The notes beneath the pieces are model-generated. The model was not told the DNA's origin. It did no database searches and saw only the letters and a program-made list of their open reading frames with translations. DNA of 64,000 nucleotides from Tellurirhabdus rosea. GTDB taxonomy: Bacteria; Bacteroidota; Bacteroidia; Cytophagales; Spirosomataceae. This document shows, in pieces, positions 10,483-44,235 of the stretch (the first letter of the stretch is position 1; each line of letters opens with the position of its first letter). The stretch covers positions 3,861,501 through 3,925,500 of the forward strand of contig NZ_CP111085.1 of NCBI RefSeq assembly GCF_026278345.1, written 5' to 3'. A program made the translations under genes and the position numbers.

Positions 10483-11667
10483 ATGAAACACCTATTTCTG
10501 ACCGCTTTTCTGGCGGCGCTGCTCACCGGCTGTAACCAAAAAAACACCTCACAACAGGAATCCTCCGGCATGACCGACAGTACAACCACTTCCGCCGCCC
10601 AACCATCCGGCGCCCCCAGACTGGCCGAGCGGACGGCTTTCCAGAAAGAAGTAGACGGGAAAAAAGCCGATCTGTTTGTTCTCAAAAACGACAAACTGAC
10701 CGTCAGCGTGACCACCTACGGCGGGCGCCTGGTGAACCTGCTCGTCCCCGACCGGAACGGAAAGCCGGTGGACGTGTCGCTGGGGTACAACAGCCTTGAC
10801 GGCTACCTGACCAATAACGAATCGTATTTCGGTACGCTTGTCGGTCGGTACGGCAACCGGATTGCGAAGGGGAAATTTACGCTGGATGGCAAAACGTATT
10901 CGCTGCCTGTCAACAACGGCCCCAATTCGCTGCATGGCGGCAAAAAGGGGTTCAACGCCCGGATCTGGAACGCCCGGCAGGTTGACGACAAAACGCTGGA
11001 ACTGACGTATGTGTCCAAAGACGGCGAGGAAGGGTACCCCGGCACCCTGACGACGGTCGTGACCTATACGCTCCAGGACAACGGAATACGGATCGACTAC
11101 CGGGCCACGTCCGACAAATCGACCGTCGTGAACCTGACCAACCACACGTATTTCAACCTGAACGGCGAAGGCTCCGGCCCCATCGGCGACCATTTGCTAA
11201 CCATCAGCGCCGACCGGTACACGCCCGTCGATACCACCCTGATCCCGACGGGTGAACTGGCCCCGGTGGAAGGGACGCCTTTCGACTTCCGGAAACCCAC
11301 GCCCATCGGCCAGCGGGCCGACGCCGATCACCCTCAAATCAAGGCGGGCGGCGGTTATGACCATAATTTCGTGCTCAACGGCGGACAAACCGAAACACCC
11401 CGCCGGATTGCCACCGTGGAAAGTCCGCAGTCGGGAATCGTGATGAACGTGCTGACGACCGAGCCGGGCGTGCAGTTTTACGGCGGAAATTTCCTGACCG
11501 GACAAGAAGTGGGGAAATCCGGAAAACCTTACGGGAAGCGCCACGGTTTTTGTCTGGAAACGCAGCATTTCCCGGACTCGCCCAACCAGCCTGATTTTCC
11601 GTCGACGGTGCTGAAACCGGGGCAGACATACCGGACGACGACTGTGTACGAATTTTCAACCAAATGA
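10483..11667 (+). CDS. galM: Aldose 1-epimerase lipoprotein (galactose mutarotase family)
   Basis: The 394-residue protein begins with a lipoprotein signal (LFLTAFLAALLTGC; Cys17) and a Ser/Thr-rich linker of about 35 residues. The galactose mutarotase fold follows: VTTYGGRLVNLLVPDRNGK, GRYGNRIAKGKF, and NGPNSLHGG with the substrate histidine. NLTNHTYFNLNG carries the second histidine, and the C-terminal GKRHGFCLETQHFPDSPN carries the catalytic glutamate. It interconverts alpha and beta anomers of hexoses, here at the outer membrane or in the periplasm. The GH5 gene follows directly, which suggests a glycan-degradation pair. Confidence 0.92.
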   Translation: MKHLFLTAFLAALLTGCNQKNTSQQESSGMTDSTTTSAAQPSGAPRLAERTAFQKEVDGKKADLFVLKNDKLTVSVTTYGGRLVNLLVPDRNGKPVDVSLGYNSLDGYLTNNESYFGTLVGRYGNRIAKGKFTLDGKTYSLPVNNGPNSLHGGKKGFNARIWNARQVDDKTLELTYVSKDGEEGYPGTLTTVVTYTLQDNGIRIDYRATSDKSTVVNLTNHTYFNLNGEGSGPIGDHLLTISADRYTPVDTTLIPTGELAPVEGTPFDFRKPTPIGQRADADHPQIKAGGGYDHNFVLNGGQTETPRRIATVESPQSGIVMNVLTTEPGVQFYGGNFLTGQEVGKSGKPYGKRHGFCLETQHFPDSPNQPDFPSTVLKPGQTYRTTTVYEFSTK

Positions 11668-11744
11668 TTGACACGCCGCGTAAACCGGCCCGGTCTGTCC
11701 GCAACACAATCCCGGACGAGCCGGGCCCGGCGTTACACAAGACT

Positions 11745-12857
11745 ATGAAACGACTAACCCTTTTTCTGCTGCTAATCACCATTCCTGCCCTTGCCCAGAA
11801 GCAGTGGAGCACGAAGCAGGCCGCCAAATGGTACAAAAAACAGCCGTGGCTGGTGGGCGCCAACTACGTACCCGCCAATGCTATCAACCAGATTGAGATG
11901 TGGCAGTCCGAAACCTTCTCGCCCGACCTCATCGATAAGGAGCTGGCAATGGCCGAAGGACTGGGCATGAACACCATGCGCGTTTTTCTGCACGACATGG
12001 TCTGGAAACAGGACCCCGAAGGCTTCAAAAAGCGGCTGGACCAGTTTCTGGGCCTTTGCGAGAAACACAAAATCCGGCCGATGCTGGTGCTGTTCGACTC
12101 GGTCTGGGACCCGAAACCCAAGCTGGGCAAACAGCGTGAGCCCGTGCAGGGACTTCATAATTCCGGCTGGGTGCAGGGCCCCGGTGCCGACGTACTGGCC
12201 GACCGTTCGCAGTGGAAAGGGCTGGAAGACTACGTGCGCGACGTAATCGGCTCGTTCCGGAACGATAAACGGATTCTGGCCTGGGATATCGTCAACGAAC
12301 CGGACAACGACAACGCCAGCAGCTACGGCCGCACCTCGAAGATGAAAACCGAACTGACCAACAAAGCGGAGCTTGGCGTTCAGCTAGTCAAGGAGGCGTT
12401 TGGCTGGGCCAGAAAAGCCCGTCCGTCGCAGCCCATCACGGCGGCTCCCTGGTACGGGGACTGGAAAGCGCCCGAAGCCATGAACGAGATGAACCGCTGG
12501 CTGTTCCAGAATTCCGACATCATCACGTTCCACAACTACGGTCCGGTGGCCGACTTCACGTCCCGAATGGCGCAGCTGACGCAGTTCAAGCGGCCCATCA
12601 TCTGCACCGAGTACATGGCGCGCCCGGTGGGCAGCACGTTTCAGGCCATTATGCCGCAGGCAAAAGGCGCCAAAGTGGGCGTAATCAACTGGGGTTTTGT
12701 GGCGGGGAAAAGCAACACCATCTATCCCTGGGATTCGTGGCAGAAGCCGTACGCCCAGGAGCCGCCGCTGTGGTTCCATGATATTTTCCGCGAAAACGGG
12801 CAGCCGTACAAGCCGGAAGAGGTGACATTTATCCGGCAGATGACGGGGGCCAAATAA
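11745..12857 (+). CDS. Secreted glycoside hydrolase family 5-like enzyme
   Basis: The 370-residue protein has a signal peptide (MKRLTLFLLLITIPALAQ). The TIM-barrel signatures are ILAWDIVNEPD with acid/base E185 and ICTEYMAR with nucleophile E289. GMNTMRVFLHDMVWKQDPEG and the aromatic WYGDWK and HNYGP segments line the cleft. An upstream ATG at 11664 overlaps the galM stop (ATGA) in frame, but it would put 27 residues before the signal peptide, so 11745 is preferred. It probably cleaves beta-glucan or mannan; exact substrate unknown. A strong bidirectional terminator follows. Confidence 0.85.
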   Translation: MKRLTLFLLLITIPALAQKQWSTKQAAKWYKKQPWLVGANYVPANAINQIEMWQSETFSPDLIDKELAMAEGLGMNTMRVFLHDMVWKQDPEGFKKRLDQFLGLCEKHKIRPMLVLFDSVWDPKPKLGKQREPVQGLHNSGWVQGPGADVLADRSQWKGLEDYVRDVIGSFRNDKRILAWDIVNEPDNDNASSYGRTSKMKTELTNKAELGVQLVKEAFGWARKARPSQPITAAPWYGDWKAPEAMNEMNRWLFQNSDIITFHNYGPVADFTSRMAQLTQFKRPIICTEYMARPVGSTFQAIMPQAKGAKVGVINWGFVAGKSNTIYPWDSWQKPYAQEPPLWFHDIFRENGQPYKPEEVTFIRQMTGAK

Positions 12858-38885: not shown

Positions 38886-40088
38886 TTGCTAACCCGGTTT
38901 TACCGGTTGGGCGGGGTTTGCCCGTGCGGTTGGCCGAAGCCGCCGTACCTTGTCAAGCATTTCCTAACTACGCGTGCGCGTACCGATTTGAGTAGTCAGA
39001 ACCGACATAAACTCCGCTGGGCCATCCGCGTCTGTATCGTGGTGGCAGCCCTGCTGACGAGTCTGCTGTACCTGTCCGAAACCCGCTTTTCGTGGGCACT
39101 GCTGGCGGGACTGTGGCTGGTCGGTACGGTGCTGAACAGCCTGTTGTGGGCCGTTCTGACGGGTTGGGTCAAAAGCGTCCGGCGGCGTTTTCCGGCCATC
39201 GGGCAGACTCGGTGGCGGGTGCTGGCGACGTTTGGCGGCTACCTGTTTTTTATCACCCTCGAACACCTGCTGCTGAGCAAACTGGTGGAGATCAGCGGCG
39301 TTATTCCGGTGCCGACGGACCCTGTTTTCTACCTCAAACAAAGCTTTATCGACCTGCTCTGGATTGTGGTGCTGGGCGTCGCCTTCGAGGTGCTGTATTT
39401 TCTGAAAAAATTCAGGGACACGGTTCAGGAAGCCGAAACCGTCAAGAAGGCGAATCTGCAGAACCAGTACGACCGGCTCAAAAACCGGGTCAACCCGCAT
39501 TTTCTGTTCAACAGCCTGAACTCCCTGACGCTGCTGATTGAAGACAATCCCCGGCAGGCGGGCGAATTTCTGGACGAACTTTCGAGCGTTTACCGGTATC
39601 TGCTTCAGAATACGGATTACCAGCTGGCGCCGCTCCGGTCGGAGCTTCGGTTTGTCCGGTCGTATTTTCACCTGCTGAAAACCCGGTTTGGCGAGGCCGT
39701 CGATTTGCAGATTCAGGTGTCCGAAGAGGCCGAACTGGGGCAACTGCCGCCGCTTTCGCTGCACCTTTTGATCGACAACGCCCTGAATCATAACACCACC
39801 CAGCCGCAGCAGCCGCTGCGCCTCCGGATTGAAGCCCTTACCCCGGCCTTTGTCGATATTTCCAACTCCGTCCAGCGGAAGACCCGGCGCGTAGCCACCG
39901 AAGCTCGCGGCGGGCTTTCGGCCGTTACATCCCGCTTCTCGGACCTGAACCTGCCGCCGCCGAGTGTGTTCGACGACGGCATGACCTTTACCGTGCGCCT
40001 CCCGCTGGCACCCCGCTCCGCCTCCGTCATGGCCGGACAGCCGGACGCTAACCCGCTTCTGAAGTCGCAAAATCCCATTCACCCGTGA
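38886..40088 (+). CDS. LytS-type histidine kinase 1 (His_kinase domain, G-box lost)
   Basis: The 400-residue protein has an N-terminal region with four membrane helices, then the LytS-family kinase motif NRVNPHFLFNSLNSLTLLIED (phospho-acceptor H in NPHFLFN), LSSVYRYLLQN, LRSELRFVRSYFHLLKTRFG, and an ATPase N-box LLIDNALNHN. The GxGL(S/A)NI glycine box seen in its two neighbours is replaced by RGGLSAVTSRF, so ATP binding may be impaired. The start is uncertain: a TTG at 38988 is an alternative. Its stop overlaps the GTG of the next gene. Confidence 0.82.
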   Translation: MLTRFYRLGGVCPCGWPKPPYLVKHFLTTRARTDLSSQNRHKLRWAIRVCIVVAALLTSLLYLSETRFSWALLAGLWLVGTVLNSLLWAVLTGWVKSVRRRFPAIGQTRWRVLATFGGYLFFITLEHLLLSKLVEISGVIPVPTDPVFYLKQSFIDLLWIVVLGVAFEVLYFLKKFRDTVQEAETVKKANLQNQYDRLKNRVNPHFLFNSLNSLTLLIEDNPRQAGEFLDELSSVYRYLLQNTDYQLAPLRSELRFVRSYFHLLKTRFGEAVDLQIQVSEEAELGQLPPLSLHLLIDNALNHNTTQPQQPLRLRIEALTPAFVDISNSVQRKTRRVATEARGGLSAVTSRFSDLNLPPPSVFDDGMTFTVRLPLAPRSASVMAGQPDANPLLKSQNPIHP

Positions 40089-41128
40089 AACTGCAGCAAT
40101 ATACCAGGCATGATTTCTGGATTGCCGGCAGTATCCTGCCCGCCTACATTCTGGCGTTCAACTACCTGCTGGTCGAGGATTATTACTATTCCAGTCCGCA
40201 GGTTTTTGCGGGCATGAGCCTGATTACGCTGGTGTTCGGCAGTATTGTTTACCAGTTTGTGCATACGCCGGTGGCACTCTGGTTCCGGCAGCAGTACCGA
40301 AGCCAGCGCCAGATTCTGAAGCGGACGCTGCTGATGCTGCCGGTGCATATCCTTATCAACTCCCACACCATTCTGCTGTTTTTTATGCTGGGCGGCCTGC
40401 TGGGGTTCCACCGGTATCCCTGGGAGCGGCTGCCGTGGTGTCTGCTGCTGGGCATGATGCTGAACGTGGTGCTAGTCTGCATCAACGAAGGCGTGTACGC
40501 GTTCGAACAGTGGGAGAGCAAACTTCAGGAAACGGAAGAACTCAAAAAAGCGAACCTGCAGAGCCAGTTCGAAAGCCTGCAGCAGCAGATCAACCCGCAT
40601 TTTCTGTTCAACAGCCTGAATTCGCTGTCTTCGCTGATTGAAGAGGACCCCGGGCAGGCCCGCAAATTCGTGGATGAACTGGGCAGTGTGTACCGCTACC
40701 TGCTCCGCAGCAACGAGTCCGAACTGACGACCCTGGCCGAAGAACTCCGCTTTGCCAACTCCTATTTTCACCTCCTGCGCACCCGCTACGGCGAAGCGAT
40801 CCGGATGGAGCAGGCCATCGACCCGGCGTTTGAAGAGTACCTGCTGCCGCCCCTGACGCTGCAGCTATTGCTCGAAAATGTGGTGAAACACAACGTGATC
40901 CTGCCCGAACAGCCCGTGCTGGTCCACCTCGAAACCCGCCACGACGGGCGGCTGGTCATCCGCAACAACGTCCAGCGACGTCCCGTCCGCGCCCTGTCGG
41001 GACAGGTGGGGCTAGCCAATATCGCCAAAAAATACAGCCTGCTGGGCGAAGGCGAAATCGAGGTGAGCGATGACGATCAGTACTTTACCGTTTCGCTGCC
41101 CCTGCTGCCGAAAGCCGTGCTGGTATGA
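40085..41128 (+). CDS. LytS-type histidine kinase 2
   Basis: The 347-residue protein starts with GTG overlapping the stop of the upstream gene (GTGA), implying translational coupling. Four membrane helices lead into the kinase core QQINPHFLFNSLNSLSSLIEED, LGSVYRYLLRSNESELTTLAEELRF, the N-box LLLENVVKHNVI and the G-box VGLANIAKKYSLLG. All expected motifs are present. It resembles the first and third kinases, so the set probably arose by duplication. A 51-base gap precedes the third kinase. Confidence 0.88.
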   Translation: MKLQQYTRHDFWIAGSILPAYILAFNYLLVEDYYYSSPQVFAGMSLITLVFGSIVYQFVHTPVALWFRQQYRSQRQILKRTLLMLPVHILINSHTILLFFMLGGLLGFHRYPWERLPWCLLLGMMLNVVLVCINEGVYAFEQWESKLQETEELKKANLQSQFESLQQQINPHFLFNSLNSLSSLIEEDPGQARKFVDELGSVYRYLLRSNESELTTLAEELRFANSYFHLLRTRYGEAIRMEQAIDPAFEEYLLPPLTLQLLLENVVKHNVILPEQPVLVHLETRHDGRLVIRNNVQRRPVRALSGQVGLANIAKKYSLLGEGEIEVSDDDQYFTVSLPLLPKAVLV

Positions 41129-41179
41129 AAATATTGTTATCTGCTTCGTATATTCGTTGTGTAGATTAGAACCACACCC

Positions 41180-42532
41180 ATGGGGTACGATTACTGGCTC
41201 ATGCTTTTTCTGGGAACCGTCTGGGCGATGCTCCTGCTGAACGTCGTGCAGTGGTGGCTGTACCGGGAACGGGTGTATGGGCTGTATACGGTCTACATGC
41301 TCGTCTGGCTGGGCTACTTTCTGCTGCGGATAGCCGACCTCGATGAGGGCGTTGATACGTTTGTCCGCGTGGCTTTTCCGATGCTGGCCTACGTGGTTTA
41401 TTTTGACCTCACCACGGACTTCCTGAATCTGCGCGTCCGGAACCAGCGGCTGCTGCGCATTTTCAGGCGTACCCAGGGCGCCATGCTGGCCTACACGGTG
41501 TTTGAAGCCATCTATTGCATCTGGATTCCCGGCCAGCTCAAACCGGCGCACGAACTGGTGCACACCCTGGCGCGGACGGGGCTGGCTGTGCAGTCGGTCT
41601 ACATCATCGCCCTCGTGTACCGGTGGAAGGACATGGTCAGCCGGTTCTTCATTACCGGCAGTTCGGCGCTGGTGCTGGGCGCACTGTCGGCCATGATTTT
41701 ATCATTTGTCTTGCCAACGCCCTACGCAGAAGCCTTCTGGGCAAAGCCGCTGACCTACATGCAGGTAGGCATCATGCTCGAACTGCTATTCTTCTCGCTT
41801 GGCCTCACGTATCGGCACCGGCGGCAGGAAGTCCGGCAGGCCGTCCGGAAGGCGCTGGTGGAAAAGGAACTGGCCCGCGAACGGGAGCAGCGACAGCGCG
41901 AGCACCTGGAGGCCGAACTCGCCGTCCAGCAGCTCCGGCAGGAGAAAACGGAGGTTCAGATGCGGGCTTTGCAGACGCAGATCAACCCGCATTTTCTGTT
42001 CAACAGCCTCAATACGCTGTCTTCGCTGATTGAGGAAAGTCCGAACCAGGCGAGCGAATTCGTGGACGAGTTATCCAGCGTGTACCGCTACCTGCTCCGC
42101 AGCAACGATACCGAACTGACCTCGCTGGGCGTTGAACTCAGCTTTATTCATTCGTACTTCAACCTGCTCAAAACGCGGCACGGCAACAGCCTGCGGTCGG
42201 AGGTGAGCGTGCCCGCCGAGTTTGAACACACCCTGCTGCCGCCGCTGACCCTTCAGTTGCTGGTCGAAAATGCGGTGAAACACAACATCGCCCTGCCCGA
42301 CCAGCCGCTCCTGATCCGTATCCGCATCGCCGAAGCGGGCAAACTGGTTGTGGAAAATACGTTGCAGCGGAAAATGCTGCGCGTGGAATCGAACGGCGTC
42401 GGGCTGTCGAATATCGCCTCGAAATACAGACTGCTGGGCAGTGCTTTGCCGATGTTCGAAGAGCGCGACGGCTGGTTCCGGGTGACGCTGCCGCTGCTCG
42501 GGGTGAGCAGACCCAGCCCGGTCCTGAAATAA
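41180..42532 (+). CDS. LytS-type histidine kinase 3 with polytopic sensor
   Basis: The 450-residue protein has about seven membrane helices in the first 215 residues, a 7TM-type sensor, then a long coiled coil (RQAVRKALVEKELARERE..., about residues 218-260). The kinase core follows: TQINPHFLFNSLNTLSSLIEES, SSVYRYLLRSNDTELTSLGVELSF, N-box LLVENAVKHNIA and G-box VGLSNIASKYRLLG. It is the most complete of the three and the last before the operon's stop. The response regulator at 43438 lies beyond an oppositely oriented lipoprotein gene. Confidence 0.9.
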   Translation: MGYDYWLMLFLGTVWAMLLLNVVQWWLYRERVYGLYTVYMLVWLGYFLLRIADLDEGVDTFVRVAFPMLAYVVYFDLTTDFLNLRVRNQRLLRIFRRTQGAMLAYTVFEAIYCIWIPGQLKPAHELVHTLARTGLAVQSVYIIALVYRWKDMVSRFFITGSSALVLGALSAMILSFVLPTPYAEAFWAKPLTYMQVGIMLELLFFSLGLTYRHRRQEVRQAVRKALVEKELAREREQRQREHLEAELAVQQLRQEKTEVQMRALQTQINPHFLFNSLNTLSSLIEESPNQASEFVDELSSVYRYLLRSNDTELTSLGVELSFIHSYFNLLKTRHGNSLRSEVSVPAEFEHTLLPPLTLQLLVENAVKHNIALPDQPLLIRIRIAEAGKLVVENTLQRKMLRVESNGVGLSNIASKYRLLGSALPMFEERDGWFRVTLPLLGVSRPSPVLK

Positions 42533-42535
42533 AAA

Positions 42536-42560
42536 CATCGCCGACGGGTCGCCGGCGATG
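42536..42560. terminator. Hairpin between convergent genes
   Basis: CATCGCCG (42536-42543) and CGGCGATG (42553-42560) form an 8-bp stem with a 9-base loop right after the third kinase's stop; five A precede it. It separates the kinase operon from the converging lipoprotein gene. Confidence 0.65.
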
Positions 42561-42597
42561 CAGTAGTTATGGTTGAGAGGAAGATTGATAAATGCGC

Positions 42598-43110
42598 TTA
42601 GATGGCTTTCCAGGACATAACCGCTTTGAAGGACGTGCCGTCTTCGGAAACTTCCACTTCGGCCTTCAGCCCTTTTGACGTAGCTTCCACGACTTTCCAT
42701 TCGGAGATGTCGGTCGGGTCTTCGCCGTCCTTGATGGTCAGGATTTTGGTGCTTTCGTTGTAGGACCAACTGCCCGGGTTGGCGTTGGGGTCGGTGTCGT
42801 CGTCGCACTTCTGGGCGCCGTTGCTGCCGCTCAGTTTGCCGGTCTTCTCGAAGCGAACCGTGTTGTCGAGGTCGCAGGGACGCATGAAGGCCGTCAGGTC
42901 GGGGTCTACTTTGCCGTCGCCGTCGAAGTCCACGGCCGGTTCCATGATGAACGAATCGAGGCGAAGGTTTTTGCCGACAAAAGCGGGCGTTTTGTCGCCG
43001 CCGGGCTGTTCGCCATCGGGCGTAATGTCAGTTTCTTTCTTACAGGAGGCCGTCATCAGGACCAGGCCCAGCAGGGCGGCAGACAGCGAACGGGTTGCGT
43101 AAAATTTCAT
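42598..43110 (-). CDS. Lipocalin-like lipoprotein of unknown function
   Basis: The 170-residue protein has a lipoprotein signal (SAALLGLVLMTASCKKE). The mature part looks like a small beta-barrel with several strands (KNLRLDSFIMEP, TVRFEKTGKL, GSWSYNESTKILTIKDG, EWKVVEATSKGLKAEVEV). DFDGDGKVDPDL resembles a calcium-binding EF-hand/dockerin loop. Two mature cysteines (RPCDLD and QKCDDD) may form a disulfide. It is inserted between the kinase genes and the LytTR regulator but on the other strand. Confidence 0.68.
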   Translation of the reverse strand: MKFYATRSLSAALLGLVLMTASCKKETDITPDGEQPGGDKTPAFVGKNLRLDSFIMEPAVDFDGDGKVDPDLTAFMRPCDLDNTVRFEKTGKLSGSNGAQKCDDDTDPNANPGSWSYNESTKILTIKDGEDPTDISEWKVVEATSKGLKAEVEVSEDGTSFKAVMSWKAI

Positions 43111-43379
43111 GGTGTTCGTATTTGTTGTTGTTCGTTAAAAAAGAGGAAAGTTGCCAGCGAACTGACGGTACAAAAGTGGCAGACGGGCCGGAAAAAGCCC
43201 ACCAACATTCCCGTCAACTGAAAAAAGCCGTCGCCGAAACGGCAAAAGCGGGTGATAAACTGGGAAATCGGGGGTCGAAAAGGCCGGTCAGCGGACCGTT
43301 GGCCGGAGGGAGGAAAGGGGTATCGTTTGGTGTTTCACAAATGTCATTTCAACGCCCGATTGTGCGGTTTCATCCCGTT

Positions 43380-43387
43380 TACTTTTG
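43380..43387 (+). promoter_or_regulatory. Promoter -7 element (TACTTTTG) of the LytTR regulator
   Basis: TACTTTTG matches TAnnTTTG exactly and lies 50 bases before the ATG at 43438. ATTG about 20 bases upstream may be the -33 element. It gives the regulator its own promoter, separate from the kinases. Confidence 0.55.
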
Positions 43388-43437
43388 GAAAAAGCGACTT
43401 TTTAAGCGAAATTTTGCCCATAAACCGAACCCAGACC

Positions 43438-44235
43438 ATGCAGGTATTTTTGGTAGAGGACGAAGAACTGGCCGTCCGCAAGCTCAGCAAACTGTTGCAG
43501 GAAGTCGCCCCCGACGTTCAGGTTGTCGGCACGGCAGCCAGTGTCCGGGCTTCCGTCGCCTGGCTGGAGTCCAACCCGACGCCGGACCTTATTTTGATGG
43601 ATATCGAACTTGCCGACGGGCAGAGTTTTGAAATCTTCGAACAGACGACCGTCAGTTCTCCGGTCATTTTTACTACTTCGTACGACGAATATGCCCTGAA
43701 GGCGTTCAAAGTCAATAGCATCGATTATCTGCTGAAGCCCATTCGCCGCAACGAGCTGGAGGCCAGTCTGGAGAAATACCAGCGCCTGCACGCCGCCGGT
43801 GTCGACGCCGCGGCCAACGGAGGTGTCCCCGAAATGGCAACGGCCGCCATCGACGCCCTCGTGCAGCAGCTCCGGCAGCAGACCCAGCCGGTGGATTACC
43901 GCCGCCGCTTCCTGGTGAAACACCGGCAGCAGTGGGTGCCCATCGAGGTGAGCGATATTGCCTATTATTTTACGGAAGACGGCGTGAGCCTGTTCAAGAC
44001 GTTCGGAGGGCAGAAGTATTCCCTCGATTACACGCTCGATGACCTGGAGAAGATGCTGGACCCGACGCAGTTTTTCCGCGCCAACCGCCAGTTTATCATC
44101 CACATTCATTCGGTGCAGCAAATCCACACGTATTTCAACAACAAGCTGAAGCTGCAACTCAAGCCCGCCCCCGACGACGAAGTCATCATCAGCCGCGAAA
44201 AAGCGAGCGATTTCAAAAAATGGATGGGAAAATAA
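43438..44235 (+). CDS. LytTR-family response regulator
   Basis: The 265-residue protein has a receiver domain (VFLVEDEELAVRKLSKLL, phospho-acceptor D in LILMDIELADGQS, T in FTTSYDEYALKAF, K in LLKPI) and a C-terminal LytTR DNA-binding domain. The latter runs from about residue 155: RRRFLVKHRQQWVPIEVSDIAYYFTEDGVSLF, LDDLEKMLDPTQFFRANRQFIIHI, and the terminal KLKLQLKPAPDDEVIISREKASDFKKWMG. It binds DNA as part of a LytS/LytT system, probably with the three upstream kinases. The ATG at 43438 is chosen because the upstream frame covers the promoter. Confidence 0.93.
   Translation: MQVFLVEDEELAVRKLSKLLQEVAPDVQVVGTAASVRASVAWLESNPTPDLILMDIELADGQSFEIFEQTTVSSPVIFTTSYDEYALKAFKVNSIDYLLKPIRRNELEASLEKYQRLHAAGVDAAANGGVPEMATAAIDALVQQLRQQTQPVDYRRRFLVKHRQQWVPIEVSDIAYYFTEDGVSLFKTFGGQKYSLDYTLDDLEKMLDPTQFFRANRQFIIHIHSVQQIHTYFNNKLKLQLKPAPDDEVIISREKASDFKKWMGK

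Follow-up and report, generated by a model that had tools for sequence, protein, structure and literature searches.

In the genome of Tellurirhabdus rosea, three related sensor kinase genes (K1, K2 and K3) precede a single gene for a LytTR response regulator (RR). This raises the question whether the three kinases act as separate inputs to one output or are combined in mixed assemblies, both of which had been suggested in an earlier note on this DNA. The locus lies in a stretch of 64,000 nucleotides (nt; contig NZ_CP111085.1, positions 3,861,501 to 3,925,500), referred to here as the window. K1 was found to carry a degenerate ATP site together with an intact acceptor histidine, K2 and K3 have intact motifs, and tandem pairs of a degenerate and an intact kinase recur in related bacteria, mostly in the same order. 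From these sequence features it is rather probable that K1 and K2 form an asymmetric heteromeric membrane histidine kinase, made of a pseudokinase and a kinase, that feeds the LytTR regulator, with K3 as an extra input. Positions refer to the window unless a locus (L), genome (G) or contig (C1) is given; the host genome is one contig of 5.58 Mb. The locus comprises the following genes:

38988..40088, + strand: K1, four-transmembrane (TM) PF06580 kinase with intact H-box and degenerate ATP site (from Pfam, motif tables, a homologue-based start and an AlphaFold2 (AF2) model)
40085..41128, + strand: K2, four-TM PF06580 kinase with GTG start, in which H-box, N-box and G2 box are all intact; predicted to be the catalytic partner of K1
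41180..42532, + strand: K3, PF06580 kinase with N-terminal 7TMR-DISM sensor and intact motifs (from Pfam and motif table); candidate third input
42598..43110, - strand: lipoprotein-like gene between K3 and the regulator, with a weak lipocalin-like match (Lipocalin_4, below cut-off)
43438..44235, + strand: RR, response regulator with receiver and LytTR DNA-binding domain and its own ATG at 43438

The three kinases matched PF06580 with E-values of 3e-22 to 4e-25 (K1 78.9, K2 88.5 and K3 88.3 bits, curated cut-off 25.2), and the three related kinases in one direction described in the earlier note could thus be confirmed. In line with the coupling proposed for the first two, the K1 stop and the K2 start share 4 nt (GTGA), and a gap of 51 nt separates K2 from K3. 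The name LytS proved to be loose. None of the three kinases matched the 5TM-5TMR_LYT domain (PF07694) at E-values of up to 0.1, and K1-K3 fall outside the LytS family as it is delimited in the excerpt of PMC5552118 (HPK8, for which the pfam07694 input is needed), K3 having a 7TMR-DISM domain. Different membrane sensors, also proposed earlier, are found in K3, but K1 and K2 both show four N-terminal hydrophobic segments. The locus had been taken to begin at 38886, which is indeed an in-frame TTG, but K1 probably starts later, with another in-frame TTG at 38988; if the protein is begun there, the alignments with most homologues set in at residues 1-11, and the N-terminal part of K1 contains no in-frame ATG. 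In RR, PF00072 (54.4 bits) and PF04397 (71.2 bits) were above cut-off and the canonical receiver residues (VEDEE, MDI, TTSY, LLKP) are present. A single receiver-LytTR protein therefore does follow downstream, but the kinases and the regulator do not form an uninterrupted co-directional row, and RR is not simply the last gene of a kinase operon, because the opposite-strand gene 42598-43110 sits between K3 and RR. This gene had been missed before, as had the degeneracy of the K1 ATP site beside an intact phospho-acceptor helix.

The ATP-site motifs of intact kinases of the class are ENAxKHN (N-box) and GLxNI (G2 box). K1 has DNALNHN and GGLSAV (in place of xGLxNI) at these sites, and the N-box E and K and the G2 Asn are lost; the acceptor H-box PHFLFN is intact. 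For comparison between kinases, seven residues were scored (E, N, K and H/Y; G, L/I and N/S), and kinases with at least two mismatches were called degenerate (D), with one mild (d) and with none intact (o). All seven residues are present in K2 and K3. AF2 models of K1 and K2 had a mean predicted local distance difference test score of 89.8 and 90.8, respectively, with a nearly equal order of elements that included the strands and helices resembling the catalytic and ATP-binding (CA) domain, so that K1 appears to keep the kinase fold, the dimerization and histidine phosphotransfer (DHp) part and CA-like elements. A pseudo-histidine kinase is a protein with kinase fold and lost catalytic residues, and K1 corresponds to this with its missing E, K and G2 Asn, although its N-box Asn is retained. 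In a split kinase, ATP function and histidine reside on separate proteins; K1 combines a histidine with a degenerate site, yet K2 appears to have both. K1 is thus predicted to be a pseudokinase or acceptor subunit with presumably no catalytic activity. Between the three kinases, the DHp segments share 55-66% identity. PF06580 was the only kinase domain above cut-off in the scanned degenerate and intact examples, and HATPase_c was not found above cut-off. Both partners therefore get the same standard annotation and the asymmetry is easily overlooked.

Recurrence of such pairs was analyzed in two sets of kinases. The first consisted of 80 loci around RR relatives, 73 with a kinase and 28 with a degenerate kinase; the second comprised the listed PF06580 kinases of seven genomes (30 in the host and 96 in six relatives). 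Tests were restricted to the HN class, and a truncated K3 copy (L009:2101-3234) was dropped. Of 47 tandem runs, 44 were used, omitting L065 (broken gene) and L171 and L191 (not HN class). Exactly one degenerate member was present in 37 of the 44 runs and two or more in none, and in 36 runs the degenerate member came first. When labels were shuffled 20,000 times, on average 21.0 runs had exactly one degenerate member and 37 was never reached. Degenerate kinases were more frequent in tandem than as solitary kinases, both in the seven genomes (9/24 vs 1/38, Fisher p 5e-4) and in the regulator-related loci (28/71 vs 1/54, Fisher p 2e-7). With the threshold set to one mismatch, the values were 10/24 vs 3/38 (genomes) and 32/71 vs 9/54 (loci), with three 5/24 vs 0/38 and 19/71 vs 1/54, and with four 0/24 vs 0/38 and 13/71 vs 0/54; the tandem excess holds at thresholds 1-3 in both sets, and at threshold 4 the seven-genome set is empty. 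An earlier Fisher test on all kinase classes was discarded: the score wrongly flags G-class N-boxes (WHG/IHG/NHG), to which 11 of the 12 solitary kinases called degenerate in that test belonged.

Nine further runs came from other genomes and had been picked for K1-like matches (L267, L268, L269 and L272 were left out as apparent repeats of L062, L100, L088 and L086). Six of them were degenerate-first, D-o or D-o-o (L259, L261, L262, L265, L270 and L271). A 4-nt overlap as between K1 and K2 is possible in 22 of the 35 listed degenerate-intact pairs, if the start codon nearest such an overlap is taken. Two genomes of the same family, G022 and G034, contain no tandem PF06580 kinases; they have 12 and 10 kinases and 47 and 56 LytTR domains, respectively, and many of those LytTR domains, among the ones listed, lie in open frames of only 100-170 amino acids, too short for an added receiver.

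What the degenerate kinases keep and what they lose was compared between 39 degenerate and 133 fully intact kinases. Fifteen DHp columns conserved to at least 95% in the intact kinases were retained on average to 97% in the degenerate ones. The acceptor histidine was kept by 38 of 39 degenerate kinases, and no other PHFLFN residue was lost from any of them. In contrast to these, the four scored N-box residues were retained in only 49, 77, 21 and 49% and the G2 glycine in 65%; nine other conserved CA columns were retained to 85%. Such a distribution would be expected for proteins in which the histidine is still important and ATP binding is not. The single exception without histidine, in L094 (PDFLFN), has also lost the N-box Asn and adjoins an intact kinase. 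The ratio of nonsynonymous to synonymous substitutions (dN/dS) was 0.06-0.36 for degenerate and 0.05-0.21 for intact partners where dS could be computed, with dS often near saturation and uncomputable in many comparisons. These values indicate that the degenerate partners are under purifying selection and not decaying. Mirror-tree correlations (r 0.74 and 0.82) were not used as evidence for interaction, because shared ancestry alone yields such values. In the same comparison, first partners of the Chitinophaga-type lineage gave 0.61 for DHp and 0.34 for CA and second partners 0.72 and 0.53, a clear relative loosening of CA in the first; in a second lineage (0.58 and 0.39 vs 0.77 and 0.50) such loosening was not clear.

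When the motif columns were left out of the tree, three groups accounted for 37 of the 39 degenerate kinases: the lineage of the window (7 rows, Shimodaira-Hasegawa-like approximate likelihood ratio test (SH-aLRT) 99), a Chitinophagaceae-type lineage (13 rows, SH-aLRT 98) and a wider lineage of Cytophagia (20 rows, 17 of them degenerate, SH-aLRT 89). The adjacent intact, K2-type partners form groups that largely match those of the K1-type genes. Among the 80 loci, a degenerate kinase was found in 11/15 of Chitinophagaceae, 9/21 of Spirosomataceae, 4/9 of Cytophagaceae, 1/6 of Hymenobacteraceae, 1/1 of Rhodocytophagaceae and 2/7 without named family, and none was found in Flavobacteriaceae (0/5), Saprospiraceae (0/4), Sphingobacteriaceae (0/3), Cyclobacteriaceae (0/3) and the remaining loci (0/6).

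A reciprocal form of the pair is encoded in two genomes of one genus, G009 and G077:

L171 / L258:6843-9091, G009 (contig C1, 879842-882090): reciprocal pair, followed by a LytTR regulator gene
L222 / L257:4648-6989, G077: reciprocal pair, no LytTR regulator gene in the stretch examined

The upstream kinases of these pairs are 70% identical; they have PPFIFH or PPFIFN instead of PHFLFN, and thus no histidine, and their ATP site is intact. The downstream kinase keeps PHFLFNS and has a degenerate ATP site. In the other 28 of the 30 loci from the same search, the histidine is kept in all 29 tabulated kinases. As the pair is of a different subclass, with KYG and not KHN, it shows a separate instance of this division of labour. 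It is the only clearly reciprocal split, and it constitutes the strongest single sign in these sequences that two such adjacent kinases can depend on each other.

According to the proposed mechanism, K1 and K2 would be translated together via the 4-nt overlap, and their DHp helices, which are similar, would join them in a heterodimer. K1 would supply its four-TM sensor and the acceptor histidine, with little or no ATP catalysis; a second sensor and the functional ATP-binding domain would come from K2. With the ATP bound to K2, histidines of the dimer would then be phosphorylated, either that of K1 in trans or that of K2 itself, and the phosphate would pass to the LytTR regulator 43438-44235. 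K3 may be an additional, self-sufficient 7TM-sensor kinase that either signals to this regulator as well or forms mixed assemblies with K2. The hetero-oligomeric kinases suggested earlier have, for K1 and K2, gained much support from the degenerate K1 site, the conserved acceptor helix, the intact partner and the recurring order.

Several observations weigh against this mechanism. The N-box Asn is kept in K1 and some of its changes are partly conservative, and K1 may still be able to bind ATP. K2 seems to lack nothing and might act by itself as a homodimer. The rule for the motif score was set after the first alignments had been seen. Three of the nine further runs are not degenerate-first (L260 d-o-o, L264 o-o and L266 o-o-d), runs of two intact kinases exist (1615565/1616675 in the host genome and L067), the degenerate kinase is last in L077, and degenerate kinases occur alone yet near other kinases (L088:3435-4565 (-), L189:12033-13205 and L266:9386-10471). 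Degeneracy is also strongly clustered on the tree: eight state changes are needed, a single origin is compatible with the tree (approximately unbiased test, p 0.48, 105-row subset), and degeneracy may have arisen only once. Phylogenetically independent pairs are few, eight on the best tree and one on supported branches. Because of this clustering, the shuffle and Fisher p-values overstate independence.

The main rival to the asymmetric kinase, which we regard as unlikely, is that K1 is a non-catalytic modulator that by binding inhibits or adjusts K2 or the regulator, for example as phosphatase or scaffold, and whose histidine is never phosphorylated. The histidine-less partner in L094, still adjoining an intact kinase, would suit such a role, and the excerpt of PMC9491836 describes a pseudokinase form of ChrS that functions in the absence of its histidine, as well as native ChrS-HrrS heterodimers. 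However, the almost complete retention of the histidine and the invariance of the other PHFLFN residues in degenerate kinases argue against a modulator, as does the G009/G077 pair, where the histidine is found only on the ATP-dead partner. Still less likely is an ordinary many-to-one system, in which a divergent but active K1, K2 and K3 form three separate homodimers that share one LytTR regulator. It agrees with the similarity of the DHp segments, with the one to three kinases beside the closest RR orthologues (below) and with the 10 of 30 host kinases for which the nearest LytTR gene is more than about 3 kb away. Parallel homodimers leave unexplained, however, that most runs have exactly one ATP-site-degenerate member, that this member is nearly always first, and that degenerate kinases rarely stand alone.

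There is very little chance that K1 arose with K2 by tandem duplication and is now decaying towards loss. Tandem kinase runs are common here, the G2 region could not be aligned in the degenerate kinases of L070 and L087, and an apparently broken kinase does occur: in L065 (Spirosoma spitsbergense), a kinase gene at 10770-11792 (-) beside an RR orthologue extends over two frames. Simple duplication decay was nevertheless rejected on the dN/dS values (with the saturation of dS mentioned above), which are low in degenerate partners of several genera, and the matching clades of K1-type and K2-type genes are old.

RR is the probable target of the kinases, as judged from their linkage and the similar DHp segments; since the DHp segments are similar across the whole class, cross-talk of K1-K3 with other regulators may occur. 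The closest RR orthologues are 61-74% identical and lie beside one to three kinases of the class. Orthologues of 69-74% identity accompany degenerate-intact pairs in G001 (same genus, L256), Larkinella sp. C7 (L064), a Dyadobacter metagenome-assembled genome (L066), Spirosoma telluris (L070), G019 (L259) and G017 (L262). A search for the same gene order in relatives had been proposed. Three kinases (D-o-o) are followed by the regulator in L064 and L262; in other loci, the arrangement differs: a single intact kinase precedes the RR orthologue in L061, L068 and L069, L067 has two intact kinases at a distance of about 1.8 kb ahead of it, three kinases (o-o-d) converge on it in L062, L063 and L266, and the broken gene stands beside it in L065. 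The distance from the last kinase to the regulator is about 120-165 nt in L064, L070, L256, L259 and L262. Relatives of the K3 sensor were found in L064 and L262 on the opposite strand beyond the regulator, and near K1-K2-type pairs without regulator at a second host locus (genome position 4363568, opposite strand) and in G009.

The host genome contains 30 PF06580 kinases and 32 LytTR domains in total, and 20 of the 30 kinases have, by position, a LytTR gene within about 3 kb. Five same-strand tandem runs are present: 251252/252306, 583004/584083, 1615565/1616675, K1-K2-K3 and 4365294/4366380. No LytTR gene is nearby for 251252/252306, 1615565/1616675 and 4365294/4366380 (the last together with 4363568(-)); the first partner is degenerate in two of these three, and 1615565/1616675 consists of two intact kinases. 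As K1-K2-type pairs thus occur without a nearby regulator (4365294/4366380 and the K1-K2-type pair of G009), such a pair need not be linked to one regulator. For this locus, the several inputs to one output suggested earlier are plausible, given the similar DHp segments and the kinases beside the closest RR orthologues. The K1-K2-type pair, often with a 7TM kinase, stays together even where the regulator is elsewhere.

The lipoprotein-like gene 42598-43110 could be regulated by the signalling unit or serve as an accessory to it. In L066, a homologue lies between the kinase pair and the regulator, as in the window. Relatives with 28-51% identity were present within about 10 kb in nine other kinase loci, which had been chosen for their kinases:

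L066:9190-9870
L065:14418-14933
L096:880-1398
L094:6983-7486
L189:1221-1724
L168:5423-5902
L100:19864-20346
L259:2-247
L271:14180-14890

A hairpin of 12 pairs at 42535-42561 has a T-rich tail on the - strand, and the RNA fold there was no better than shuffles (z -0.46); a terminator between K3 and the lipoprotein gene is uncertain. Direct repeats upstream of RR were unconvincing as LytTR sites.

Natural heteromeric histidine kinases are, to our knowledge, few. Known systems were compared as they are described in excerpts of the cited papers; according to one of these, histidine kinases generally act as homodimers (PMC9491836). CheA3/CheA4 of Rhodobacter sphaeroides is an established split histidine kinase (PMC3591291). 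There, too, ATP catalysis and acceptor histidine are on separate polypeptides that must meet, and there is one output regulator; whole domains are lacking, however, whereas K1 and K2 keep all domains and have membrane sensors, with the ATP site lost by point degeneration and the K2 histidine kept. In SMART, 3.66% of HisKA proteins have no HATPase domain (PMC3591291), in a survey of missing and not of degenerate domains. ChrS_CA-fs is a pseudokinase from laboratory evolution, and the native ChrS-HrrS heterodimers were detected by two-hybrid (PMC9491836). DivL is described as a pseudo-histidine kinase that regulates CckA. It has a Tyr in place of the His. DivL and ChrS_CA-fs resemble K1 as kinase-like proteins with impaired catalysis that modulate a partner kinase; unlike them, K1-type genes adjoin the partner gene and retain the histidine. 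BtsS/BtsR and YpdA/YpdB of E. coli share the Pro before and the Phe after the kinase histidine and a LytTR regulator (PMC5552118, PMC10653868), but have a 5TM-5TMR_LYT (and GAF) input, which was not found in K1-K3, and one kinase per regulator. The nearest solved structure is the GanS kinase domain (6swj/6swk), to K2 by sequence (E 2e-18) and to K1 by fold; GanS is not known to us as part of a pair. Tandem degenerate/intact pairs of the PF06580 family in Bacteroidota were not described among the open-access literature matches listed. As split kinases and pseudo-histidine kinases are already known, the recurrent tandem pair would be new, but not categorically new.

If the proposed mechanism is true, an operon-encoded, recurrent pseudokinase-kinase pair would be a clean system for studying how two membrane signals are combined in one dimer and which histidine is used. 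More tentatively, it is possible that Cytophagia and Chitinophagia have old and widespread obligate heterodimeric receptor kinases, in which an ATP-dead receptor with sensor and acceptor histidine is joined to a catalytic receptor, a division of labour similar to that of eukaryotic pseudokinase receptors. This would be fully reciprocal in G009/G077, and pairs detached from a regulator gene may integrate signals on shared LytTR regulators.

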